From NCBI RefSeq assembly GCF_030705605.1, contig NZ_JAPCKK010000016.1, forward strand, positions 620,001 to 684,000: a stretch of DNA of 64,000 nt, given 5' to 3'. The notes under the pieces were generated by a model. That model searched no databases, was not told the origin of the DNA, and saw nothing but the letters and a program-made list of their open reading frames with translations. The first letter of the stretch is position 1; every line of letters starts with the position of its first letter. Made by a program: the position numbers and the translations under genes. This DNA comes from Paenibacillus zeirhizosphaerae (GTDB lineage Bacteria > Bacillota > Bacilli > Paenibacillales > Paenibacillaceae). This document shows, piece by piece, positions 1-12,061 of the stretch.

Positions 1-343
1 GCACACCCGCAACATCTCTGCGCTCCTTCACCTCGCCTCGGCAGTTGAAGACAATATATCCGGTTTCTGTCCGCTCCAAAAATACAGCCAAACCAAGCTT
101 ATAATCTGCATTATAGTCGTATCGTACCGCCCTTCTTCCACCTCCCGAATGATCGAGGCCGAGCGAAACCACTTCCCCGCTCTTCTCCATCTGATTAATG
201 AACTTGCTGATCGTTGGAAAGCTTATGTCCAGCTTGCGGCTAAGCTCAACCTTCGTTGCACCCCCATGCTTCAATAGCTCGGTACGGATGCCACGAAGAA
301 TAATTTTCTTCATGGACTTTGGATTGGCTGTTATCTCACTCAT
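1..343 (-). CDS. ROK-family transcriptional repressor, N-terminal part (runs off the left edge)
   Basis: About 114 codons are visible. Translation begins at the ATG complementary to 341-343 (MSEITANPKSMKKI). A winged helix-turn-helix follows at about residues 15-75, with the recognition-helix pattern KVELSRKLDISFPTISKFIN and then a GGGRR wing. After it comes the beginning of the ROK actin-like fold (YKLGLAVFLE). This layout is that of XylR/NagC-type ROK repressors, which bind a palindrome and are released by a sugar or sugar phosphate. The C-terminal sugar/ATP domain lies outside the window, so the ligand cannot be inferred. A perfect inverted repeat directly upstream (362-387) suggests autoregulation. 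The gene is divergent from the AT-rich regulator at 535. Confidence 0.85.
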   Translation of the reverse strand, partial: MSEITANPKSMKKIILRGIRTELLKHGGATKVELSRKLDISFPTISKFINQMEKSGEVVSLGLDHSGGGRRAVRYDYNADYKLGLAVFLERTETGYIVFNCRGEVKERRDVAGV

Positions 344-468: not shown

Positions 469-497
469 TTGACCTCCGTTCGATAAATGGTTATATT
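469..497 (+). promoter_or_regulatory. Sigma-A promoter of the AimR-like regulator
   Basis: TTGACC (469-474) and TATATT (492-497) are separated by 17 bp and lie about 38 bp upstream of the TTG start at 535. Both hexamers are close to the sigma-A consensus and the spacing is ideal. Confidence 0.7.
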
Positions 498-534
498 TGT
501 AATATAATTGCAAATTAATTCAGGGGTGGTTAAT

Positions 535-1935
535 TTGAGTGACACTACCACGATAAGAACTCAGCTTGACAACTTCATGGAACAACAAGGATTAAATATA
601 TCACGCTTTGGAAAGATCGCCGGATTAAATGCTGGCACGATGAGTTCAATCTTGAACGGAAACCGTATAATGGCTGTAAATCAATTAGACCGGATCACTG
701 CTGTGCTAGCTTTGCCAGAGGGATATTTTTATGAACAATACGTGCAGGAATATTTAAACGAAGCTTCCCCCAATTGGCGTAGAATCAGGCCATTCTTGTA
801 CCGTTGTGCTGAATTGGACAAGCTTGATTGCATAAGACAAACGGTTGATTTGTTAATGGACAATTTAGTGTACTCTCCTTTGCTTTTTGATACGGCAGAG
901 GATTTTTTCCATAACAACAAAGGCAAAGCAGCGGTAATCCTGTATGAGTGTGTTGCAGAAAGTGAGATTCGTCAACACTCGGAAAGATTGGCCCTATGTC
1001 ATTATCGTTTGTTTCTGCTAAGAATTCGAGAAAATAATCAAACTCGAAACTTGCGTGCAGCCAATCAATTTGAACCCTATGTAGATCGTCTGGATGAGAT
1101 TGACCAGCTCGATGCACTCAAAGAATTAGCAAATACATATCGATCGCTTCGGGAATGGGATAGGGTCGAAAAGACTGTAAATAAAATGGAGCAGCTTGCT
1201 AAGGTTCAGTATTTCGAAGGCCAACGCATCGAAAGGGTTCGGCGATCCATAAAAAAGCCTGGAAGACCTTTGTTTTTTTATCTCGCCTATTCTAATCTAC
1301 TTCGAGCAGGTGTTAGTGATGCGCGCGGAGATTACAGACAAGCCTTGCAATACACATACGCTTATGCCGATTTAGCCTGGGTTAAAGAAAGCGACGAAGA
1401 TACATTACATTGGAAGAACCTATTTAAAGAGTGGGCAAAGGCAAATACTTATGTAAACAAGCTTTTCTCAGGTGAATTAGAAATTTTACCACACTATGTA
1501 ACCTATATGGAGAAGAAGCAGGATGAGATGCTTCTTGCATTGTTTAATATTTTAAAAGCAGCTAATCGTTTTAATTTTAACGTAGATAATATATTGCTCA
1601 AGTTCGAAGAACACGTAAGCACCTATTTGGAGAGACGGCATACCCTCGGCGTGTACAACGAAAAATTTGTAAACGAATATTCCCTTTACCTTTTCTATGA
1701 GTTGGCTGAATATTATCTAGCTAATAAAACAGACTCATATGGATTCAAATATTTATTAGAATGTTTGAAAACATCCTTTATAATGAAAAATGAATCATAT
1801 ATCACTAAGTGCATGGTGCTGTTTGAAAACACTCGCAATCTTGCATCTTCAGACACCGTAATAACCTATCACAATCTGATGAAAGAGGTGTTCATGAATG
1901 AAAAAAAGAATCACACTACTTTGGTTAGCAGTTAG
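535..1935 (+). CDS. RRNPP-type (AimR/AloR-like) HTH-TPR quorum-sensing receptor
   Basis: The predicted protein has 466 residues. An N-terminal XRE-type helix-turn-helix (about residues 5-60) contains NISRFGKIAGLNAGTMSSIL and QLDRITAVLALPEGYFYEQY. A long all-helical TPR-like region follows to the C-terminus, with repeated pairs such as LALCHYRLFLLR, ALKELANTYRSLREW and YSLYLFYELAEYYLA. This architecture is typical of intracellular receptors of secreted oligopeptides (Rap, NprR, PlcR, AimR), and the HTH wording matches the AimR-like AloR receptors of Paenibacillaceae as I recall them. I chose the TTG start at 535 because AGGGGTGG (522-529) sits 5 bp before it; an in-frame TTG at 508 has no such site. 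The last 38 bases overlap the pro-peptide gene at 1898. The gene is clearly more AT-rich than the sugar genes to its right, hinting at transfer. Confidence 0.85.
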   Translation: MSDTTTIRTQLDNFMEQQGLNISRFGKIAGLNAGTMSSILNGNRIMAVNQLDRITAVLALPEGYFYEQYVQEYLNEASPNWRRIRPFLYRCAELDKLDCIRQTVDLLMDNLVYSPLLFDTAEDFFHNNKGKAAVILYECVAESEIRQHSERLALCHYRLFLLRIRENNQTRNLRAANQFEPYVDRLDEIDQLDALKELANTYRSLREWDRVEKTVNKMEQLAKVQYFEGQRIERVRRSIKKPGRPLFFYLAYSNLLRAGVSDARGDYRQALQYTYAYADLAWVKESDEDTLHWKNLFKEWAKANTYVNKLFSGELEILPHYVTYMEKKQDEMLLALFNILKAANRFNFNVDNILLKFEEHVSTYLERRHTLGVYNEKFVNEYSLYLFYELAEYYLANKTDSYGFKYLLECLKTSFIMKNESYITKCMVLFENTRNLASSDTVITYHNLMKEVFMNEKKNHTTLVSS

Positions 1936-2023
1936 TTTTTCGTTATGTTTAGTTGCAACAACTACCGATCAGTTATCAGTAGATTTACTCTTTAACACGT
2001 TAGATCAACACGGACACGGTTAA
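1898..2023 (+). CDS. AloP/Phr-like secreted quorum-sensing pro-peptide (41 aa)
   Basis: An ATG at 1898-1900 opens a 41-codon frame, shifted +1 relative to the receptor gene it overlaps, ending with TAA at 2021-2023. AGAGGTG (about 1884-1890) gives normal ribosome-binding-site spacing. The product has a basic start (MKKR), a hydrophobic core (ITLLWLAVSFSLCLVA), a polar linker (TTTDQLSVDL) and a short C-terminal tail, LDQHGHG. This is the classic layout of Phr, AimP and AloP pro-peptides: Sec export, then proteolytic release of the last 5-10 residues, re-import by an oligopeptide permease and binding to the adjacent TPR receptor. The mature peptide is probably DQHGHG or close to it (inference). 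A gene this short is easily missed by automatic annotation. Position, overlap and composition together make the assignment fairly strong. Confidence 0.8.
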   Translation: MKKRITLLWLAVSFSLCLVATTTDQLSVDLLFNTLDQHGHG

Positions 2024-2097: not shown

Positions 2098-2118
2098 GAG
2101 GCTGTCATAGACGGCCTC
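2098..2118 (-). terminator. Rho-independent terminator of the beta-mannosidase gene
   Basis: GAGGCTGTC and GACGGCCTC pair (one G-T wobble) around an ATA loop. On the minus strand the stem is followed by TTTTTTC, so it fits the gene ending at 2157. It may also act weakly on the plus strand for the receptor/peptide pair, where only a loose T-rich stretch follows. Confidence 0.7.
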
Positions 2119-2156: not shown

Positions 2157-4721
2157 TCACGGTTGCACAGCCGTTTGTTTAATATAATCGGTTATGGAAC
2201 GGAATGTAACCCGCCCCGGAGCCTGCGGACGGAAATAAGAGCTCTCTCCGCCGAACGTCAGGAACCCAACCGTTTTGGGTACTCCAGGCACCAGATCAAA
2301 GTCATTATCCGTAAAGATGCCATCATGCTCTGCGGACAACCACACATGTCTGGCTAATACATCCGACTTCAATGTAAGCGTCCATTCTTCTCCTTCTCCG
2401 CTTTCCAGGCATTCGATACGGGGCACGGGCAGAATCATTTCTTTGATTGCCGTAAAATAATGCTCCCGCACAGCCTTCGTTTCTCCGCGCTCATTTTCCA
2501 GTCTGGCCACAAGCATATGCTCGGCCGTTTTTTTGCCCCCAAGCAGTTCCTCCACAGCAAGAGTCAGAACCGTCTCATTTCCGTTAGGCTTTATCTGTAT
2601 CTCCTGTTCGAGCTCCTTGACGGTACCTCCGAGAATATGCCGCACACTTACGTTCAGCTTACCTGTAACGTTCTGCAGGGTATCATTTATGACATGAAAC
2701 GATACAGTTCCTTGGTTGTGCCCGGCCACCGACAACAGTATATCACTGAAGCTGCGCTTGGCTCTGTACTGCAGCGCTTTCCAGCGTCCGTAATAATCCA
2801 TGCCAGCCCATGACGCAACCGGCCAGCAGTCATTCATTTGCCAATACAATGTGCCCATGCAGTAGGGTTTGCTGCGGCGATGCGCTTCGATCGCCATCTC
2901 CATGGCGTCCGCCTGCAGAATTTGGCTCATATGCAGGAAAGCTTTAAAATCCTTTGGCTCGTGCAAATACATATCCATATACTGCTTGATCAGCCGGTTA
3001 CCCGCCCCATTCTTCTGATGAGCCAGCATCGGCTCCGATTCCAGCTCCAACTCATGCTCCTCAGCATAGGAACGAACAGACCGGTATTCCGGAAAAGACT
3101 GGAAGCCGTACTCGCTCATAAAACGTCCGACATACACATTATAATTTTCAAACGGTTCGACCGCATGCCATACGCCCCAGTAGTGAATGTCCCCTTCAGT
3201 GGATGCAGGATGCGCATGCTGCCCTGCATCGCCGGTCAGGTCAATCATAGGAGAAGACGGCCAATAGTCACTTCCGGGTGCAAGCCGTTCAACCACCTCT
3301 GGCAGAACACGGTGAAATATAGCTTCATAATCCGCCCAAATCCGCTCACGCTGTTCAGGGGTGTAATTCTTCTTCCAGCCCCAGCCTCCACTCTCGTTAT
3401 AATGCGCCCAGGCCGAGTCGATTTCATTATTGCCACACCACAGAGCGATGCACGGGTGGTTGCGAAGACGCCGCACGTTATCCTCCGCTTCAAGACGGAC
3501 ACTGTTCAGAAAAACTTCATCTCCCGGATACATGCTGCAAGCGAACATAAAGTCCTGCCATACCAGAATGCCGTATTCATCACATAGCTCGTAAAACACG
3601 TCCTCCTCATAAATGCCGCCTCCCCATACACGCAGCATATTCATGTTGGATGCGGCCGCGCTGGCCACCTCATGCCGATACCGTTCAGCCGTAACTTCCG
3701 TAATAAAGCTATCATTAGGAATGTGATTGGCCCCTTTGGCAAATACGGGAGTTCCATTGAGCTCAAAATAAAAGCTTGCGCCTTGTTCATCCTTCTCACG
3801 GACAAGACGAATCGAGCGAAGGCCGGTCCGGACGGACTGCTCGGCAATCGGTTGCTCTCCCCACAGCAGCTCGGCGCGGAACTCGACCATCGCTTGCTCT
3901 CCCAGGCCGCGGCACCACCACAACTTCGGCTCAGTGATCGTCAACGGAAGTTCAAGTGTCTGTCTGCCTTGCTTCAGTTCCACTTTACTGCTCCAGTCCT
4001 GCCCATCCGCCGTCAAACGCAGCAGAACAGGACCGGCTTCGGCCGCTTCGATCTCTACCTGAGCTGTAAGCCTCGCTTCCTTGGCGTTGACTTCATCCTG
4101 ACGGATGAACAGGTCCAAGATGCGGCTAACCGCCCAGCCCTCCAGCCTGATCTCACGCCAGATTCCGCTTGTAACCAAACGCGGCCCCCAATCCCAGCCG
4201 TAATGGTATGGAGCCTTGCGGGCGAAAACACTCAGCTTGCGGTCATCCAGCCCTCCAAGCTCAGACTGGTCGTTCGACGCAGGAAGCCCGTATCCGAGCT
4301 TTTCCAGCTTCGGAAGGTCCTCCTGGATCGGGGAGCGAAAGCGGATATGGATTACGTTATCGCCGACTTTAAGCAAAGACTTAATATCATTTCTCCAGGT
4401 ACGGAACATATTGTCTCCCGAAAATACCAGCACATCGTTAACGCTTACATCAGCATAAGTATCCAGGCCCTCACATACCAGCTCCAGATGCTGCAAAGCC
4501 GCTGCCTCGGGCCGGATCAGGAAGTGGGCCTCATACTCCCAATCCTGCTTGTCGATCCACTGCAGCTCCCGTTCATTCGTTCCATAGAATGGATCGGGGA
4601 TTGTGCCGTTGCGCAGCAAATCGGTATGCACGCAGCCCGGAACTTGTGCCGGCAGCCACTCCTTATCTGCACATGCCTTAAACCTCCATCCTTCCAACCG
4701 CTGAGTCCATTTTTCCATCAT
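2157..4721 (-). CDS. Glycoside hydrolase family 2 beta-mannosidase
   Basis: The protein has 854 residues and no signal peptide, so it is cytoplasmic. It should release mannose from the non-reducing end of imported beta-mannosides. The N-terminal jelly roll starts WTQRLEGWRFKACADKEW and contains VPGCVHTDLLRNGTIPDPFY, a signature of GH2 beta-mannosidases. Two beta-sandwich domains follow, then the TIM barrel with WCGNNEID (acid/base Glu at about residue 428) and SEYGFQSFP (nucleophile Glu at about residue 537). The length is normal for the family. ATGATG at the start gives two possible first codons (4721 or 4718) behind GGAGGG. The gene has its own promoter, a terminator separates it from the upstream lacI gene, and an ACCTAA/TTAGGT operator candidate lies in its 5' leader. 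It is probably induced by the neighbouring LacI protein's ligand. Confidence 0.92.
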   Translation of the reverse strand: MMEKWTQRLEGWRFKACADKEWLPAQVPGCVHTDLLRNGTIPDPFYGTNERELQWIDKQDWEYEAHFLIRPEAAALQHLELVCEGLDTYADVSVNDVLVFSGDNMFRTWRNDIKSLLKVGDNVIHIRFRSPIQEDLPKLEKLGYGLPASNDQSELGGLDDRKLSVFARKAPYHYGWDWGPRLVTSGIWREIRLEGWAVSRILDLFIRQDEVNAKEARLTAQVEIEAAEAGPVLLRLTADGQDWSSKVELKQGRQTLELPLTITEPKLWWCRGLGEQAMVEFRAELLWGEQPIAEQSVRTGLRSIRLVREKDEQGASFYFELNGTPVFAKGANHIPNDSFITEVTAERYRHEVASAAASNMNMLRVWGGGIYEEDVFYELCDEYGILVWQDFMFACSMYPGDEVFLNSVRLEAEDNVRRLRNHPCIALWCGNNEIDSAWAHYNESGGWGWKKNYTPEQRERIWADYEAIFHRVLPEVVERLAPGSDYWPSSPMIDLTGDAGQHAHPASTEGDIHYWGVWHAVEPFENYNVYVGRFMSEYGFQSFPEYRSVRSYAEEHELELESEPMLAHQKNGAGNRLIKQYMDMYLHEPKDFKAFLHMSQILQADAMEMAIEAHRRSKPYCMGTLYWQMNDCWPVASWAGMDYYGRWKALQYRAKRSFSDILLSVAGHNQGTVSFHVINDTLQNVTGKLNVSVRHILGGTVKELEQEIQIKPNGNETVLTLAVEELLGGKKTAEHMLVARLENERGETKAVREHYFTAIKEMILPVPRIECLESGEGEEWTLTLKSDVLARHVWLSAEHDGIFTDNDFDLVPGVPKTVGFLTFGGESSYFRPQAPGRVTFRSITDYIKQTAVQP

Positions 4722-4746
4722 CAGCCCTCCGCTCCGTTTTTCCTCA

Positions 4747-4761
4747 ACCTAACATTTAGGT
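4747..4761. promoter_or_regulatory. ACCTAA-N3-TTAGGT inverted repeat, candidate LacI operator
   Basis: ACCTAA (4747-4752) and TTAGGT (4756-4761) form a perfect 6-bp inverted repeat with spacer CAT. It lies just downstream of the predicted minus-strand transcription start of the beta-mannosidase gene. A further TTAGGTT (4785-4791) falls within the promoter spacer, and a TTAGG/CCTAA pair recurs in front of the lacI gene (5927-5945). Confidence 0.45.
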
Positions 4762-4774
4762 GAATTACATAACA

Positions 4775-4803
4775 AAAATAACATTAGGTTTGATGAAGGT
4801 CAA
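4775..4803 (-). promoter_or_regulatory. Predicted sigma-A promoter of the beta-mannosidase gene
   Basis: On the minus strand TTGACC (4803-4798) and TATTTT (4780-4775) are separated by 17 bp. The -35 box is good and the -10 box moderate. The start codon is about 55 bp further on. Confidence 0.5.
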
Positions 4804-4826
4804 CCAGTTGTTGGAAAATAAAAAAA

Positions 4827-4848
4827 GTCGTTCGGTTTCCCGGACGAC
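4827..4848 (-). terminator. Terminator of the LacI-family regulator gene
   Basis: GTCGTTCGG and CCGGACGAC pair around a short TTTC loop. On the minus strand the stem is followed by a run of seven to eight T, directly downstream of the stop at 4860. Confidence 0.8.
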
Positions 4849-4859
4849 TCGTCACCATG

Positions 4860-5891
4860 TTATTTCACCACTTTTGCTCTACCAACCGTAGAGAGAAATT
4901 GCTCCCTCACCACCAGCTCGGCATCGATGGCTGTCTTCTCGTGAAGAGAAGCGGGATTCATCATTCTCCAGAGGAGTTGATCCACCGAACGCCTGCCCAG
5001 CAGTTCCTTGTCCATCTTAACGGTTGCCGCAATCGGGTGCTGCTCATGCGTATGATCAAACCCGGTAACACCACAATCTGCGGGAACACGGACCCCCAAG
5101 CCGTCCAGGGTGTCAATCACCAGGTGGGCGGTATGATCATTGACACATACAAACAGCTCTGGCAAGCCTTGAGCCGCAATACTCGCAAGACAAGCGGCCA
5201 AGTCTGCTGGCTCCGGCGTAAACAGCCTTTCGTCCTGCTGTACATCGATCCCGTTTCTTTCAAGCGTTGAGCGGTAAGCAGCCCAACGCTCATGAAAGCT
5301 CCAGGCATCGCTGATGTTGCCCACAAACTGCATGCGGCTGTATCCTTTGGCGATCAAGGTATGGAGCATCTCCTCCATACACGCCCAATTATCCGTAAAT
5401 AGAGTATCCGCGCGAACCGCCGCATCTCTGTGATCGACCATAACGAACGGTATGCCAAGACGCCGGATATTCAGCAGTATTCCTGTCGAGATCGAACCCA
5501 CCGTAATAATACCGCGAATGGCTGCAGGGTTCAGCAGCGAAAACAGATCGTCCGACGACGGCTCTGTCAGAGTAAGCACATCCAGTCCTTTATCATTTAA
5601 CTGTTCCGCTATTCCTTCAAACACAGGCCCCCAGTACTTAGACTCCCTGTTCTGACTGCGGATATTGGGAAACAGCACCGCAACCGTGCCCTTCCAAACA
5701 GCCTGTTCCGGTGCAATACGTTTATGCTCCTGCCTGAAATATCCCAGCCTGCCTGCCAGCTCTACAATCGCTGCCCTCGTGTCTTCACTTACGCCCGGTT
5801 TACCCGCCAATGCACGGGAGACGGCAAATTTGGAGACACCAGCCGCTTCTGCAATCTCCTGTAAGGTCACTTTCCCTCGCATATCCATCAC
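4860..5891 (-). CDS. LacI/GalR-family transcriptional regulator
   Basis: About 343 residues. The N-terminal helix-turn-helix is TLQEIAEAAGVSKFAVSRAL followed by a hinge helix, then a periplasmic-binding-like effector domain (ending with GVTGFDHTHEQHPIAATVKMDKELLGRR). The helix-turn-helix marks it as a sugar-responsive repressor. It lies between the beta-mannosidase and the divergent solute-binding protein, and operator-like TTAGG/CCTAA repeats occur at both promoters, so manno-oligosaccharide control is a reasonable inference. The start is unclear: GTG at 5891, ATG at 5888 and ATG at 5882 are in frame and the ribosome binding site (GGGTGATGG region) is weak. Confidence 0.88.
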   Translation of the reverse strand: MMDMRGKVTLQEIAEAAGVSKFAVSRALAGKPGVSEDTRAAIVELAGRLGYFRQEHKRIAPEQAVWKGTVAVLFPNIRSQNRESKYWGPVFEGIAEQLNDKGLDVLTLTEPSSDDLFSLLNPAAIRGIITVGSISTGILLNIRRLGIPFVMVDHRDAAVRADTLFTDNWACMEEMLHTLIAKGYSRMQFVGNISDAWSFHERWAAYRSTLERNGIDVQQDERLFTPEPADLAACLASIAAQGLPELFVCVNDHTAHLVIDTLDGLGVRVPADCGVTGFDHTHEQHPIAATVKMDKELLGRRSVDQLLWRMMNPASLHEKTAIDAELVVREQFLSTVGRAKVVK

Positions 5892-5926
5892 CCGTCAATT
5901 TATTTGTTCTATCGTAGCACAAATAT

Positions 5927-5945
5927 TTAGGATAACAAAACCTAA
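5927..5945. promoter_or_regulatory. TTAGG-N9-CCTAA repeat between lacI and the solute-binding protein gene
   Basis: TTAGG (5927-5931) and CCTAA (5941-5945) are inverted around a 9-bp spacer in the divergent control region. The half-sites match those at the beta-mannosidase promoter (4747-4761 and 4785-4791), although the spacing differs. Confidence 0.35.
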
Positions 5946-5975
5946 CAAACAACAAAATTATTTTGAATATTTTTC

Positions 5976-6004
5976 TTGACTGTTAGTCTTTGTTTTCTTA
6001 GAAT
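5976..6004 (+). promoter_or_regulatory. Sigma-A promoter of the solute-binding protein gene
   Basis: TTGACT (5976-5981) and TAGAAT (5999-6004) with a 17-bp spacer, about 60 bp before the start codon. Confidence 0.7.
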
Positions 6005-6012
6005 TCATGGTA

Positions 6013-6026
6013 TGAAAGTGCTTACA
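6013..6026 (+). promoter_or_regulatory. cre-like CcpA site downstream of the promoter
   Basis: TGAAAGTGCTTACA matches the cre consensus TGWAANCGNTNWCA at 13 of 14 positions (T instead of C at position 7). It lies over the predicted transcription start, where CcpA would repress. Confidence 0.6.
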
Positions 6027-6063
6027 CTGGTGCGTTTATTATTCTATGGAGGGGGATTTTTTC

Positions 6064-7758
6064 ATGATCAAAATAAAAGCAGTACGCCGGATTTCCATAT
6101 TGCTTCTCTCTTCAATGCTGCTGGCTGCTGCTGGCTGCGGCGGCCCTGAAAGTACGGCGAACAACCAGGATGACCCTAACGATACCAGTCCGCTGACATT
6201 GACCTATTTTAGCGGAGAGGGCAGCGCAAACTGGAACAACATGCAGGATGAGATCGGCAAGGAAGTGACGAAAAAGACGGGTGTCACGGTAGATGCGGAA
6301 TTCGCCGTAAACGGCAGCGGGCAGGACAAATTCGCCCTTATGATCGCGAGCGGCGATTATCCCGATATGGTCTACCCTAAGGACAGTGTAGGCAAGCTGG
6401 TGGATGCAGGCGCCCTCATTGATTTAACCGATTTGATCGATCAATACGGGCCGAACATCAAAAAGGTGTACGGCGAATACTTTAACCGAATTAAATACAG
6501 TCTTGACGATCCCGCCATTTATACGATTCCGACCAATATGGGTGTGGACAGCATCAGCTTTGATACCGTAGGCGGTTTTGAAATCCAGCATCAGGCGCTG
6601 GAGAAGCTGGGTTACCCGGAGATACGCACGGTCAAAGATTTTGAGAATGCCCTGCGGACTTATAAAGAGAAATACCCGACGACCAACGGTCAGCCTACCA
6701 TCCCCCTCTCCCTCGACGCCGATGATTGGAAAATCATGATCACAGTAACCAATCCTGCTGTTCAAGCTACGGGCGTTCCTAATGATGGTGAATATTACAT
6801 CGATCCCGAAACCCACGAAGCCATCTTGCATTACCGTCGACCGGAGGAACGTGAATACTTCCGCTGGCTGAACCATATGTACAATGAAGGACTGCTGGAC
6901 CCGGAAACCTTTGTACAGAAGAGCGACCAGTATAAAGCCAAGATCGCCAGCGGCCGTGTCATCGGGCTGATCGATCAGAAATGGAATTACCAGGATGCGG
7001 AGAACGCTTTGAAGGCCGCAGGCAAAGACGAGCATACCTACGCGCATTTCCCGGTAACGATGAGTGAGGAGTACGATGACCCTTCCTTCCAATCGATCGG
7101 CTTTGATACCGCGTATGGCATCGGCATTACCGTGGATAACAAAAATCCGATCCGCACGATCAAGTTTCTGGATTATCTGGCCTCTGAAGAAGGACAAATT
7201 CTGCGCAACTGGGGCATAGAAGGCAAACATTACAAGATGGAAAACGGAAAAAGAGTTGTTCCACCTGATGTGCAGGAGCGTAAAAATAACGATAACCTCA
7301 ATTTTCAGAAGGAAGTCGGAATTGGGCTATACTGGAGCTGGGGACCTCATTACGGGGATGGCATCAAGGATTCCACCGGCAACTATTTCACCACCAACTA
7401 TCCTGAAATGATCACGGCCAACTACAGTGAAGCAGAGAAAAAATCGTTGGAAGCATACAATATTACGATGTGGAAGGACCTCTTCAAGACCGAGGAAGAT
7501 TTCCCAGTGAAAGAATGGGGGGCTGCCTATAATATGCCGGTGCCGACGAATACCGATTACAATGTCATCTACCAAAAGTCACAGGATATCGTGCGCAAAA
7601 GAATTCCGGAGGCCGTTCTTGCTCCCAAAGACCAGTTTGACAGCATCTATGATACGATGCTGAAGGAATTCGACGAGGCGGGCATGCCGGAAGCGGAGAA
7701 GACGTATACCCAACTGATCAAGAACCGCCTGGAGCTTTGGTATGGGGACAGCAAGTAA
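6064..7758 (+). CDS. Sugar ABC transporter solute-binding lipoprotein (orphan, LplA-like size)
   Basis: The ATG at 6064 follows GGAGGGGG (6050-6056) at good spacing; an in-frame ATG at 6046 has no such site. About 564 residues. The lipoprotein signal is a basic start, ISILLLSSMLLAAAG and then the lipobox Cys (LAAAGC). The mature part is an extracellular solute-binding fold (DKFALMIASGDYPDMVYPKD, LIDLTDLIDQYGPNIKK). The length of about 560 is that of large oligosaccharide-binding proteins that normally work with LplB/LplC-type permeases. No permease gene is next to it, so the protein must use a transporter encoded elsewhere. Regulation is probably by the divergent LacI protein and by CcpA. The ligand may be a manno-oligosaccharide, judged only from the neighbouring beta-mannosidase. 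Confidence 0.88.
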   Translation: MIKIKAVRRISILLLSSMLLAAAGCGGPESTANNQDDPNDTSPLTLTYFSGEGSANWNNMQDEIGKEVTKKTGVTVDAEFAVNGSGQDKFALMIASGDYPDMVYPKDSVGKLVDAGALIDLTDLIDQYGPNIKKVYGEYFNRIKYSLDDPAIYTIPTNMGVDSISFDTVGGFEIQHQALEKLGYPEIRTVKDFENALRTYKEKYPTTNGQPTIPLSLDADDWKIMITVTNPAVQATGVPNDGEYYIDPETHEAILHYRRPEEREYFRWLNHMYNEGLLDPETFVQKSDQYKAKIASGRVIGLIDQKWNYQDAENALKAAGKDEHTYAHFPVTMSEEYDDPSFQSIGFDTAYGIGITVDNKNPIRTIKFLDYLASEEGQILRNWGIEGKHYKMENGKRVVPPDVQERKNNDNLNFQKEVGIGLYWSWGPHYGDGIKDSTGNYFTTNYPEMITANYSEAEKKSLEAYNITMWKDLFKTEEDFPVKEWGAAYNMPVPTNTDYNVIYQKSQDIVRKRIPEAVLAPKDQFDSIYDTMLKEFDEAGMPEAEKTYTQLIKNRLELWYGDSK

Positions 7759-7799
7759 AGAGATATACGGAACGGCTAAAAGAAACGAATACTAAAAAA

Positions 7800-7846
7800 C
7801 TGCCGAGACTTTCTCGACAGCTTGCAGCGACTCGAATTAGAGTCGC
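7800..7846. terminator. Tandem hairpins: convergent terminators
   Basis: CTGCCGAGA/TCTCGACAG (7800-7820, one mismatch) is followed by TTTTTT on the minus strand and suits the GNAT gene ending at 7889. GCGACTC/GAGTCGC (7827-7846) is followed by a T-rich stretch on the plus strand and suits the solute-binding protein gene. Confidence 0.7.
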
Positions 7847-7888
7847 TTTATTTATGTTCACCTCCACGAAGGAGGGCGCTGGAAGGAT

Positions 7889-8650
7889 TTAAAGCGTGAA
7901 TGATCCGGACACTCCTCTCTTTACTCTGTACCAATAAGCATAGATTTCCCGGTAACCAAGCTTGTCGTACAACCTGATCGCTGGACCGTTCCCCTTTAAT
8001 ACCTGCAAATAGCTGTGCTTTGCGCCCTGGTGCTTGCCCCACTGCAGCAGGCTCAGAACAAGCTGTTCGGCGTATCCCTTGCCGCGGTGCTCCGGATGAG
8101 TCACGAGATCATAGATCCCGAGCCACTCCCGCTCCATCACGCCCATGACGCAGGCTACGGGTTCAGCAGCTTGATACAGAATGATAAAAGCCTTGTTTAA
8201 GACCGGCAGGGACAGCATTTTGCGCTTGACTGTCACATATTCTGCCGGCAGATGGGTGAACCTTGCGTACACGTCCATCCATTCATCACTGATTTCTGCC
8301 GCAACCTTCACATGTTCCAAGTGAGACCCCTTGATATGATCCAGGCTCAAGGTCTGTACACAGGATAAATCGGCAGTCTCATAACCTCTCTTCTCCAGCA
8401 CTTCATCCAAATTGGCCGGCTGGATAAAAGGGGTGATTTTAAAGATAGGGTCAAGTCCCGCTCTGGCATAAAAGCGCTCACACGCCAAAATCTTCTCTTC
8501 AATGCAAATTTCGTCGCCACTGTAGATGGGGCTAACGGAGTTGGACCTTTGGGTATACCCTTCGGCATAACGTGTAATCCAGCCATCAACGGACATTTGG
8601 TATAGAGCAGGCAGAGCGTTTAATGAAAATTCCTCAATATATTTATGCAC
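7889..8650 (-). CDS. GNAT-family N-acetyltransferase
   Basis: 253 residues, cytoplasmic. The acetyl-CoA-binding signature is in the last third: YDLVTHPEHRGKGYAEQLVL, with the R/Q-x-x-G-x-G/A loop as RGKGYA, followed by SYLQVLKGNGPAIRLYDKLG. The N-terminal half lacks clear acetyltransferase motifs and may be a degenerate GNAT domain or a substrate domain, as in two-domain GNAT proteins. The substrate is unknown. It lies downstream of a Nudix remnant on the same strand and converges on the solute-binding protein gene; nothing ties it to sugar metabolism. Confidence 0.8.
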   Translation of the reverse strand: MHKYIEEFSLNALPALYQMSVDGWITRYAEGYTQRSNSVSPIYSGDEICIEEKILACERFYARAGLDPIFKITPFIQPANLDEVLEKRGYETADLSCVQTLSLDHIKGSHLEHVKVAAEISDEWMDVYARFTHLPAEYVTVKRKMLSLPVLNKAFIILYQAAEPVACVMGVMEREWLGIYDLVTHPEHRGKGYAEQLVLSLLQWGKHQGAKHSYLQVLKGNGPAIRLYDKLGYREIYAYWYRVKRGVSGSFTL

Positions 8651-8722
8651 ACTTACTACCTTCCTTCGTTAATTGGGTAGTATAAATATACATATTAATA
8701 TTTTTTTATTCAATTATATAAT

Positions 8723-8857
8723 TCAATGCAGAATAGCATCATCTCGAAACACAAACCGTTCGATATCATATACATCTCTGCCATAGGCGAGCCCCGTCTG
8801 GCTGATAGCCTGAATTTGCTTTGCCCAAGTAAGCCATTTGGGTTCCATAACATCCAT
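8723..8857 (-). pseudogene. Remnant of a Nudix hydrolase (N-terminal 44 codons)
   Basis: Behind AAAGGATGG an ATG at 8857 opens a 44-residue frame containing EPKWLTWAKQIQAISQTGLA and RDVYDIERF. This resembles the N-terminal domain of small Gram-positive Nudix (ADP-ribose pyrophosphatase-like) hydrolases. The frame then departs into an unrelated tail (VFRDDAILH) and stops. Full-length members have about 200 residues, and the catalytic Nudix box GX5EX7REUXEEXGU is absent. The most likely cause is a deletion that removed the catalytic part. Confidence 0.6.
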
Positions 8858-8975
8858 CCTTTACTGATTAGGTCCACTACTGTCTATATACAGGTCCAAG
8901 CCCGAAGAACAGCCCCCCCTCTGGCAGCCGATGTAGCTGCCCGGAGAGTATCTGTTCCAAAGGAGCCAGGACGGG

Positions 8976-9344
8976 TCACTTTGACCTGCCCAATAGCTCT
9001 GCCATTCTGCTGCTTAACGCATCGTACTGCTCCTGATGGGTATCACTGAACGCTTCAGTTCTAGAAGAAAGCACATGTAAATATGCAATATCACCGGCAA
9101 ATTGCGATGCGGTGAAATCATAGACATCATCGTTAATACGATTGTAATAATGCCAGCCTTCCTTGGTCATCGTCTTCAGGATTTCGCCTCCCAGACGATC
9201 CTGAACGACTACAGCGGTTACACCGCACTGACCCTGGGCCGGAGTGTCCACAGTCCACTTTGAGCTGGTGTGCAGCGACCACACCTCCTGTAGAGCTGCG
9301 GATATCTGATCATATAAAGCGCTTGAAAGCGAGCGTGTTTTCAT
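8976..9344 (-). CDS. YunG-like small protein
   Basis: 122 residues, no signal or membrane segment. It contains SLHTSSKWTVDTPAQGQCGV, AVVVQDRLGGEILKT and GWHYYNRINDDVYDFTASQF. These resemble the Bacillus YunG family as I remember it: a small protein with an invariant QCGxTA segment, reminiscent of a thiol-peptidase fold. No biochemical role can be given. The start is ATG at 9344. It stands alone between the Nudix remnant and the divergent GH94 gene. Confidence 0.65.
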   Translation of the reverse strand: MKTRSLSSALYDQISAALQEVWSLHTSSKWTVDTPAQGQCGVTAVVVQDRLGGEILKTMTKEGWHYYNRINDDVYDFTASQFAGDIAYLHVLSSRTEAFSDTHQEQYDALSSRMAELLGRSK

Positions 9345-9604
9345 ACGGTTTCCCTGCCCTCCAATATGAGTTAACTAAATCTTACCTTTTTCACCAGGGT
9401 GGGAGCAACCTGGAAACAACCCTTACGGGTATGTAATTTTAAGAAGATGGTTAAGGAAATTCAGATCTTGAACAAATACGGAAGGAATTAACCCGTCCGG
9501 AAAGAAGCACTTCAAGAGAACGGATCATGAATATCGATAGAGCTGCCAGCCGTCACCCGCTGTGCTCCATGATCCGTTCCCCAAACTGAAAGGGGCTGTG
9601 ACTA
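9345..9604. promoter_or_regulatory. Leader region of the GH94 gene with two nested hairpins
   Basis: This 260-bp gap holds no gene. GAACGGATCATG (9518-9529) and CATGATCCGTTC (9568-9579) are a perfect 12-bp inverted repeat with a 38-nt loop. Immediately after it CCCC (9579-9582) can pair with GGGG (9592-9595), which is the core of the ribosome binding site for the GTG start at 9605. The two structures share base 9579, so they compete slightly. No known riboswitch class is recognisable. I found no convincing promoter hexamers. Confidence 0.5.
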
Positions 9605-12061
9605 GTGCAGTATGGTTTCTTTGACGATCAAAACAGAGAGTATGTCATTACTACTCCGAAAACACCTTATCCATGGATTAACTACCTTGGCAATGAACAA
9701 TTTTTCGGGCTGATGTCAAATACCGCGGGCGGTTATGCCTTTTACCGGGATGCGCGTCTGCGGAGGCTGACCCGTTACCGTTATAACAATATTCCTGTAG
9801 ACAACGGAGGACGTTACTTCTACCTCTATGATCAGGGAGATTTCTGGACCCCCGGCTGGATGCCGGTCAAGAAAGAGCTTGAGTTCTACGAATGCAGACA
9901 CGGTCTCGGTTATACCTCCATTACCGGCGAACGTGGCGGAATTCGTGTCAACCAACTGACGCTAGTGCCGCTTGGCTTTAACGGTGAGGTGCATCAGGTG
10001 ACCATCAGTAACACTTCCGACGCTGTAAAGCAGGTGAAGCTGTTTTCGTTCGTTGAGTTTTGCCTCTGGAACGCGTATGACGATATGACTAACTTCCAGC
10101 GTAATCTCAACACCGGGGAGGTGGAAGTGCAGGACTCCGTCATCTATCACAAAACGGAATACCGCGAGCGGCGGAATCATTACTCCTTCTTCTCGGTCAA
10201 CGCCCCGATTGCCGGATTTGATACGGACCGCGAATCATTCCTTGGATTGTACAACGGACTTGATGAGCCCCAAATTGTGGCCGCCGGGCAACCGTCCGAC
10301 TCCCTGGCCAGCGGCTGGTCGCCGATTGGCTCCCACTGTCTGGAGATTACGCTCCAGCCCGGTGAGTCAGCCAGCTACAATTTTATCCTCGGATATGTGG
10401 AAAATGCTGAAGACGAAAAATGGGAATCGCCGGGAATCATTAACAAGGCCCCTGCCGAGGCCATGATCCAACGCTTCAACGATGCCAGTGATGTCGAACA
10501 GGCGCTTGACGAGCTTACAGCCTACTGGGACGGACTTCTCTCCAAGTTCACCTTACAGGGTCATGAAGAGAAGCTGAACCGTATGGTTAATATTTGGAAC
10601 CCATATCAATGCATGGTGACGTTTAATATGTCCCGTTCCGCCTCTTATTTCGAATCCGGTATCGGGCGTGGTATGGGCTTCCGTGATTCCAATCAGGATT
10701 TGCTCGGCTTCGTGCACCAGATCCCGGAACGGGCACGCGAGCGAATTCTTGATATTGCCTCCACCCAATTCGAAAACGGCGGAGCCTATCACCAATACCA
10801 GCCGCTCACGAAGAAGGGAAATCATGAGGTGGGCGGCGGCTTTAACGATGATCCGCTGTGGCTCATTCTCGGCACGGCCGCCTACATCAAGGAGACCGGC
10901 GATTTCGGCATTCTCGATGAGCAGGTTCCATTCGACTGCAATCCAGACAATACGGCTACGCTGTTTGAGCATTTGAAGCGTTCCTTCTACCACGTCATGG
11001 AGAATCTGGGACCTCATGGACTTCCGTTGATCGGACGGGCGGACTGGAATGATTGTCTGAATTTGAACTGCTTTTCCAACGTGCCGGATGAGTCTTACCA
11101 AACGACGCAGAACATTGAGGGCCGCACAGCCGAGTCCGTGTTTATCGCTGGTCTGTTCGTTTATACCGGGCCGGATTTCATTGAGCTGTGCAGACGCCGC
11201 GGGCTTGTGGAAGAAGCGGACGCCGCTCAGGCACATGTGGATCGGATGCGTGCCGTAACGTTGGAACACGGCTTTGACGGTGAGTGGTTCCTGCGGGCTT
11301 ACGATCATTTTGGGAACAAGGTGGGCAGCAAGGAGAACGATGAGGGACAAATTTTCATCGAGCCGCAGGGCTTCTGCGTAATGGCTGGAATTGGCGTGCA
11401 AGAAGGTCAAGCCGTCAAGGCGCTCGATGCGGTAGCCGAACGGCTGGAAACCAAGTACGGCATTGTGCTGCAAAACCCGCCTTATTCCAAGTATTATCTC
11501 AATCTGGGTGAAATCTCGTCTTACCCTCCCGGGTATAAGGAGAACGCCGGCATTTTCTGCCATAACAACCCGTGGATCATGATGGCGGAAACGATGATTG
11601 GGCGCGGCGACCGTGCTTTTGAGCTGTATACCAAAATTGCTCCTGCATACCTTGAAGAGATTAGTGATGTCCATCGCACGGAGCCGTATGTATATTCCCA
11701 GATGATCGCCGGCAAGGACGCCATCCGGGAAGGTGAAGCCAAAAATAGCTGGTTAACAGGAACAGCAGCCTGGAACTTCGTTGCCATCACCCAGTCCATT
11801 CTCGGCATTCAGCCCCAGTTCGACGGACTGAAGATCGACCCGTGCGTTCCTGCGGATTGGGAGGAATTTACGATTACACGGGTCTACCGGGGAGATACCT
11901 TTGTGATTCATATATCCAATCCGGACCGGGTCAGCAAAGGAATCGCTTCGGTTATGTTGGATGATCAGGCTCTTAGCGATAATCTGATTCCTCCGGTGGG
12001 CGATGGCGGAACCCATCATGTAAGAGTAGTTATGGGGCATGCAGTGACAGTGGAAGCTTAA
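9605..12061 (+). CDS. GH94 cellobiose/cellodextrin-type phosphorylase
   Basis: 818 residues, cytoplasmic, GTG start. The N-terminal beta-sandwich begins [20 protein letters not shown] and carries [20 protein letters not shown], a hallmark of GH94. The (alpha/alpha)6 barrel contains [16 protein letters not shown] and [12 protein letters not shown], with the general-acid Asp of the WND motif at about residue 480, and later GIFCHNNPW. The enzyme performs reversible phosphorolysis of a beta-glucoside to alpha-glucose 1-phosphate plus a shortened acceptor; cellobiose is the commonest substrate, but laminaribiose or other disaccharides cannot be excluded. The length agrees with cellobiose phosphorylases. 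It is monocistronic with a strong terminator and a structured leader. Confidence 0.9.

Follow-up and report, generated by a model that had tools for sequence, protein, structure and literature searches.

The first two kilobases of the DNA analysed here, a stretch of 64,000 nucleotides referred to as the window, raise the question of whether a regulator gene and a very short reading frame overlapping its 3′ end form a peptide signalling pair, to which family such a pair would belong and which promoters it would control. We conclude, with a probability of roughly 0.85, that they form a two-gene AloR-AloP operon, aloR followed by aloP, that is likely self-controlled through a palindromic box in its own promoter. 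This reading rests on the anatomy of the locus, the family membership of the receptor, the conservation of the short frame, the predicted fold and the conserved promoter box.

Results

Anatomy of the operon

The receptor reading frame stays open across 508-1935, and the TTG at 535 is the start that fits the ribosome binding site GGGGTGG (Table 1). aloP starts inside aloR in the +1 frame, the stretch from its ATG through the aloR stop codon being a 38-nt overlap (an offset of −38), and its 41 codons encode MKKRITLLWLAVSFSLCLVATTTDQLSVDLLFNTLDQHGHG, in which a hydropathy scan found a 12-residue stretch at or above 2.0 and K or R among the first residues. An earlier note had described just this layout, namely a receptor with HTH and TPR-like helices, a 41-codon gene with its own ribosome binding site overlapping the receptor by 38 bases, and a product with a basic N-terminus, hydrophobic core, polar linker and DQHGHG tail; both frames, the overlap, the AGAGGTG ribosome binding site and the composition were borne out. 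Folding of the downstream segment from 2024 to 2130 gave z = −2.72. The next gene (2157-4721) lies on the opposite strand and encodes a GH2 mannosidase-type enzyme, and no same-strand gene follows aloP. Among the fetched loci, 23 of 87 regions following aloP contain the 9-mer AAAGACCAG, which is probably part of terminator hairpins.

Table 1. Features of the aloR-aloP operon, in window coordinates.
Feature	Position	Strand	Remarks
aloR promoter	469-497	+	−35 TTGACC (469-474), 17-nt spacer, −10 TATATT (492-497); 10/12 consensus positions
Palindromic box TATATT-TGT-AATATA	492-506	+	Proposed AloR operator; overlaps both the −10 and the expected start of transcription
aloR ribosome binding site, GGGGTGG	523-529	+	Read from the sequence
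aloR	535-1935	+	466-aa peptide receptor, TTG start; HTH (about residues 7-74) and TPR superhelix (81-465)
aloP ribosome binding site, AGAGGTG	1884-1890	+	7 nt before the ATG; read from the sequence
aloP	1898-2023	+	Pro-peptide of 41 aa; begins with basic MKKR, then a hydrophobic core and a polar linker before the tail LDQHGHG
Codons of the predicted signal DQHGHG	2003-2020	+	Putative signal of the last six residues, by analogy with AloP13 and HG-tail conservation
Terminator-like hairpin closing the operon	2098-2118	+	9 pairs, T-rich tail

The receptor belongs to the AloR family and has a predicted TPR superhelix

Receptors have been assigned to known families at 30% identity over 80% coverage (PMC10075063, in excerpt). 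Because the window receptor and the alo13-locus receptor are 37% identical over their full length (172/471; residues 1-466 against 1-463 of 467 aa), which exceeds that criterion, the window receptor fits the AloR family, in agreement with the kinship proposed earlier. The reference for this comparison was locus L120 of a same-genus genome rather than the ATCC 842 sequence itself; it was recognised as alo13 by the published AloP13 pro-peptide, with which its peptide ends exactly, and by the exact published spo0E-promoter primer site. The published AloR13 start primer matched within two mismatches in 13 of 75 same-genus genomes, L120 being among the loci so found. Among 394 family genomes, with up to four candidates scored in each, the closest relative of the window receptor was only 57% identical, and no close orthologue was found.

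Pfam-type family libraries matched the window receptor weakly, with HTH_26 (E 0.0077) and TPR_7 (E 0.019) both under the cut-off, and among 47 aligned family members HTH_3 was present in 31 and TPR_7 in 18 (E up to 0.01). An AlphaFold2 model made from 47 aligned sequences (mean pLDDT 87.9, pTM 0.80) shows an HTH formed by helices at 7-74 and paired helices at 81-465, and so predicts a long TPR superhelix C-terminal to the HTH, for which peptide binding is a candidate role. When the TPR part was superposed on solved structures, eukaryotic LGN scored best (Z 17.9); NprR with NprX reached Z 15.4 (295 residues superposed, rmsd 8.1), apo NprR Z 14.7, RapI Z 14.5 and RapH Z 13.7. Since helical repeats reach Z of up to about 13-14 by chance, as the superposition tool warns, and TPR proteins of unrelated function match or exceed the NprR-NprX value, these scores show a TPR superhelix and not more. 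Foldseek against the PDB found nothing down to the E 0.001 cut-off, with RapF, PlcR and RapH at E 0.008-0.025; AimR was not among the matches listed there or among the best 50 superposition matches, which does not exclude an AimR fold. When solved structures were searched by sequence, the matches up to E 1 were HTH domains of other proteins and included no RRNPP receptor; the AimR chain was absent from them and also from the 32 matches of a profile search run to E 10. Among viral protein models, S5MC02 stood out (E 7.7e-12).

Distribution of related receptors

The source genome holds nine receptor places, two of them without the N-terminal part of the match. The genomes labelled as same-genus include those of P. 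terrae NRRL B-30644 and P. polymyxa M1, which fits a host in the Paenibacillaceae. Matches at E 1e-60 or better occurred in 66 of 75 same-genus genomes, and at 1e-100 or better in 175 of 394 genomes of the host family, Paenibacillaceae (up to four candidates scored per genome), representing 4 of 19 genera. A search of genome contigs with the single receptor protein returned no relative; the same search with the receptor alignment found 366, of which 80 were kept.

Several loci carry more than one receptor. The source genome has two Alo units in tandem on another contig (L039:6100-7540 and 2800-3700, from G000:C33): a receptor match truncated at the N-terminus, whose pro-peptide has the tail ALHGAEH, and then an intact pair with the tail GEQIGGA and the exact box of the window. 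At nine other loci (L122, L131, L132, L134, L139, L073, L083, L091 and L098) two aloR genes stand in tandem and one of them has no called peptide, which resembles the pairing with an orphan receptor published for aloR13-aloR14. AloR-like receptors were also found on 35 plasmid records, with up to five places per record (for example NC_017543.1 of P. polymyxa M1 and NZ_CP024796.1 of P. polymyxa ATCC 842), at 20 IMG/VR loci and, as distant relatives with 26-27% identity, in the Brevibacillus phages SecTim467 (KT151957.1) and Emery (KC595516.1).

The short frame is conserved in position and tail

Published AloP short ORFs are 32-50 aa long and overlap or closely follow the receptor 3′ end (PMC7425212, in excerpt). 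We surveyed 100 sources, consisting of a piece of the window and 99 loci taken from among the best matches and the paralogues in the source genome, which gave 112 distinct receptors, and called a peptide-like ORF where a product of 25-65 aa encoded near the receptor stop had a hydrophobic stretch and K or R close to its start. Such an ORF accompanied 92 of the 112 receptors, the window included, and in 70 cases it started at exactly −38; of 90 control sites, the ends of other ORFs in these loci, 5 had one. At least three of the 92 resemble chance ORFs (L056, L043 and the second receptor of L144), and 20 receptors had no called peptide. A second, overlapping set drawn from named organisms gave similar figures (84/105, with 60 at −38). 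The earlier note had named an unconserved short frame and a receptor lacking a TPR groove as grounds against its proposed pairing of the two genes; the conservation among relatives and the predicted TPR superhelix both came out in favour of that pairing. Within the source genome, the aloP product matched only itself.

The tail is conserved as well. HG occurs within the last eight residues of 46 of 68 peptides (those at offset −38 with clean receptors), against 5.7 expected from shuffled tails, in which the largest count was 15, and tails similar to LDQHGHG include FTQHGG in P. fonticola, FDQHGGI in P. massiliensis subsp. panacisoli and IQHGNG in P. terrae. The mature AloP13 peptide, SHGRGG, comprises the last six residues of its pro-peptide (PMC7425212, in excerpt), and by this analogy the mature signal of the window pair is most likely DQHGHG or QHGHG. 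A literature search, which covered papers without their supplementary tables, returned no paper on a DQHGHG or QHGHG peptide and a single occurrence of QHGHG, in an unrelated virus-diagnostics paper.

Because the window receptor has no close orthologue, codon use in the short frame was compared among relatives rather than for the window aloP. In the non-overlapping part of the peptide frame, differences at codon positions 1, 2 and 3 numbered 232, 181 and 299 over 45 non-independent pairs, and in the same pairs non-synonymous differing codons exceeded synonymous ones (321 versus 174). The third-position excess is mild and would neither prove nor refute coding, and the linker is clearly fast-evolving; given this weak test, the case for aloP rests on conservation of frame, offset and tail. 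Comparison of 57 HG tails with 18 tails having an IGG/VGG-type core against every receptor column placed columns 335, 328, 425 and 303 at the top of those listed. Receptor-peptide co-variation was rejected as a claim, since the tail class changes only four times on the tree and a test of independent pairs had at most three pairs.

A palindromic box in the aloR promoter

Promoter-like sites in the region as a whole were no more frequent than in shuffles (seven against a mean of 5.6). Upstream regions of aloR genes have in common TTGACC, 17 nt and then TATATTTGTAATATA. The 15-mer box occurred with up to two mismatches within 300 bp upstream of 30 of 111 aloR genes, 16 of them exact, where mononucleotide shuffles predict 0.45; it was missing from the other 81, the alo13 loci among them, and in the alo13 promoter the sequence beyond the −10 differs. 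At 80% over 85 nt, 16 of the 30 box-bearing regions are non-redundant. In these 16, for which the core was the selection criterion, TTGAC, a preceding TGG and a following TTAG..A are strongly conserved outside that core; the sequence of the 17-nt spacer is not conserved, and the start codon lies at a distance of 43 to 122.

The box is also specific to aloR genes in the genomes searched. In the source genome, the 18-mer has two exact matches, before the window aloR and before the C33 paralogue; at three mismatches it has seven further matches, where the reversed control has six. The gapped promoter pattern likewise matched twice in the whole source genome, at the window aloR and one paralogue, with no match for its control. 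Within three mismatches, the 23-mer gave 12 matches, one each in 12 of 14 other genomes selected for holding close receptors, against one for the control, and by coordinates each of the 12 copies stands upstream of an aloR, at a distance of 28 to about 125 bp. Mapped on the receptor tree, presence of the box requires 6 changes, versus about 26 when shuffled, and the exact box is shared by aloR genes whose receptors are only about 50-57% identical. The simplest reading of these patterns is that the box is a candidate AloR operator in the promoter of aloR itself.

Genomic setting

The pair lies on a contig of 978 kb and is thus most likely chromosomal; this location is not special, since most AloR systems in print are bacterial and not phage-borne. 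Upstream are a divergent gene for a ROK-family regulator (343 aa, the last part at window 2-343) and then an MFS transporter. From 2157 to 12061 the window is a sugar-use neighbourhood encoding the GH2 mannosidase-type enzyme, a LacI regulator, a solute-binding protein and a GH94 phosphorylase. Pfam searches of ten left-flank and seven window genes, the latter counted with the first 343 bases of the window, and PHROGs searches of eight neighbours that gave general matches only, found no phage structural gene, in keeping with the earlier view of the pair as chromosomal and free of phage genes.

AloR13 acts on the promoter of a downstream spo0E gene, and a spo0E-like gene lies directly downstream in some Alo systems only, six of them in P. 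polymyxa (PMC7425212, in excerpt). The source genome has four spo0E-like genes, none of them on the contig of the pair (C11). Because such a gene is optional, membership in AloR-AloP stands without this neighbour. At another locus of the source genome (L042, G000:C7:17083-18855), a spo0E-like gene lies just before, not after, an aloR whose peptide ends LTHGAGGY.

Discussion

Three other accounts of the gene pair itself were weighed. That aloP is a chance short ORF beside an ordinary HTH-TPR regulator is scarcely credible: short hydrophobic ORFs do turn up at the ends of control genes, but the 70 receptors with an ORF of related sequence at the identical offset and frame, against 5 of 90 controls, refute this in the main, and it was rejected. 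An arbitrium-like AimR-AimP system belonging to a phage or plasmid, rather than a bacterial system, is highly improbable. The plasmid, Brevibacillus phage and IMG/VR records show that AloR-like receptors do occur on such elements, but the window pair sits on a long contig between metabolic and transport genes and none of the genes scanned is a phage structural gene, on which grounds a prophage arbitrium was rejected. An orphan or degenerate pair, in which the receptor works and the peptide is no longer made or recognised, is unlikely, though less so than these two. Orphan AloR receptors and degenerate peptides have been published (PMC7425212, in excerpt), the 20 receptors with no called peptide would be of this kind, and the HGHG tail does not have the GG of many relatives; against this, the aloP frame is intact: it has a ribosome binding site, starts at the −38 offset common in the family, resembles a signal peptide at its N-terminus and closes with an HG tail.

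A rival reading, less likely than not but still considerable, keeps the pair as described and takes the box for a strong and conserved core promoter, or for a site where some other regulator binds, with AloR acting on distant genes in the way that AloR13 acts on spo0E. TTGACC and TATATT are good σA hexamers, most aloR upstream regions do not have the box, and AloR13 works on the downstream spo0E promoter (PMC7425212, in excerpt) while the own promoter of alo13 departs from the box after the −10. However, conservation extends beyond the −10 as far as TGTAATATATTAG, more than the needs of a core promoter, the 17-nt spacer and the length of the leader vary while the box, whose core was selected for, is conserved, and the box was found only before aloR genes in the genomes searched, which is unexpected for the site of a general regulator.

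For the self-controlled AloR-AloP operon that we prefer, a single promoter would read aloR and, through overlapping translation, aloP. AloP would leave the cell through the general secretion route and be cut there to a short C-terminal peptide; an oligopeptide permease would bring this peptide back in, and it would then be bound in the TPR groove of AloR, switching its activity as a DNA-binding regulator. Since no spo0E-like gene lies nearby, the likeliest direct target of AloR is the pair itself, and AloR would most likely act on its own promoter through the palindrome and on the promoter of the one paralogue that shares this box. As the −10 element lies within the box, AloR would be expected to repress, and the peptide could either release or tighten this repression. 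The published mode of AloR13, which activates its target until the peptide shuts that target off (PMC7425212, in excerpt), is the reverse of plain self-repression. A more tentative and rather doubtful extension is a closed circuit, in which the only direct DNA sites of AloR in the genome would be the palindromes of its own promoter and that of one paralogue, so that the signals DQHGHG and GEQIGGA would be cross-wired through a shared operator.

If AloR does bind the box, its presence before aloR genes only, in 12 of 14 other genomes, would represent an old and unreported self-control trait of part of the Alo family. Both the signal sequence and the promoter box appear to be unreported in the literature searched, within which the box would be the first handle on an AloR DNA site beyond the spo0E case, and it makes self-control and the cross-talk of the two pairs directly testable.

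Comparison with known systems places the pair within this family. It shares with AimR-AimP the general logic of a receptor gene followed by a peptide gene (PMC7425212, in excerpt), but unlike arbitrium it lies in no prophage as judged from the neighbours scanned. With NprR-NprX, Rap-Phr and PlcR-PapR it shares a predicted TPR superhelix, although a sequence search to E 1 linked it to none of the solved RRNPP receptors. Resemblance is closest to other Alo systems. Like AloR13-AloP13 of P. polymyxa (PMC7425212, in excerpt), the pair comprises an HTH-TPR receptor, a short overlapping pro-peptide gene and an HG tail, a likeness anticipated in the earlier note; in alo13, however, the start offset is −50, a spo0E-like gene follows and the signal differs. 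Other Alo systems, with P. terrae NRRL B-30644 and P. fonticola DSM 21315 as example hosts, have 50-56% receptor identity, the −38 overlap and related tails such as QHGG, QHGNG and DQHGGI, whereas the signal DQHGHG is the window's own, with no orthologue among the fetched loci. The C33 paralogue pair has 57% receptor identity, the exact promoter box and the overlap layout, at −35, but its tail is GEQIGGA where that of the window is LDQHGHG. The kind of system is one already described in Paenibacillaceae (PMC7425212, in excerpt), and the window pair is a further AloR-AloP member, adding one more private signalling channel to a genus already known for many.
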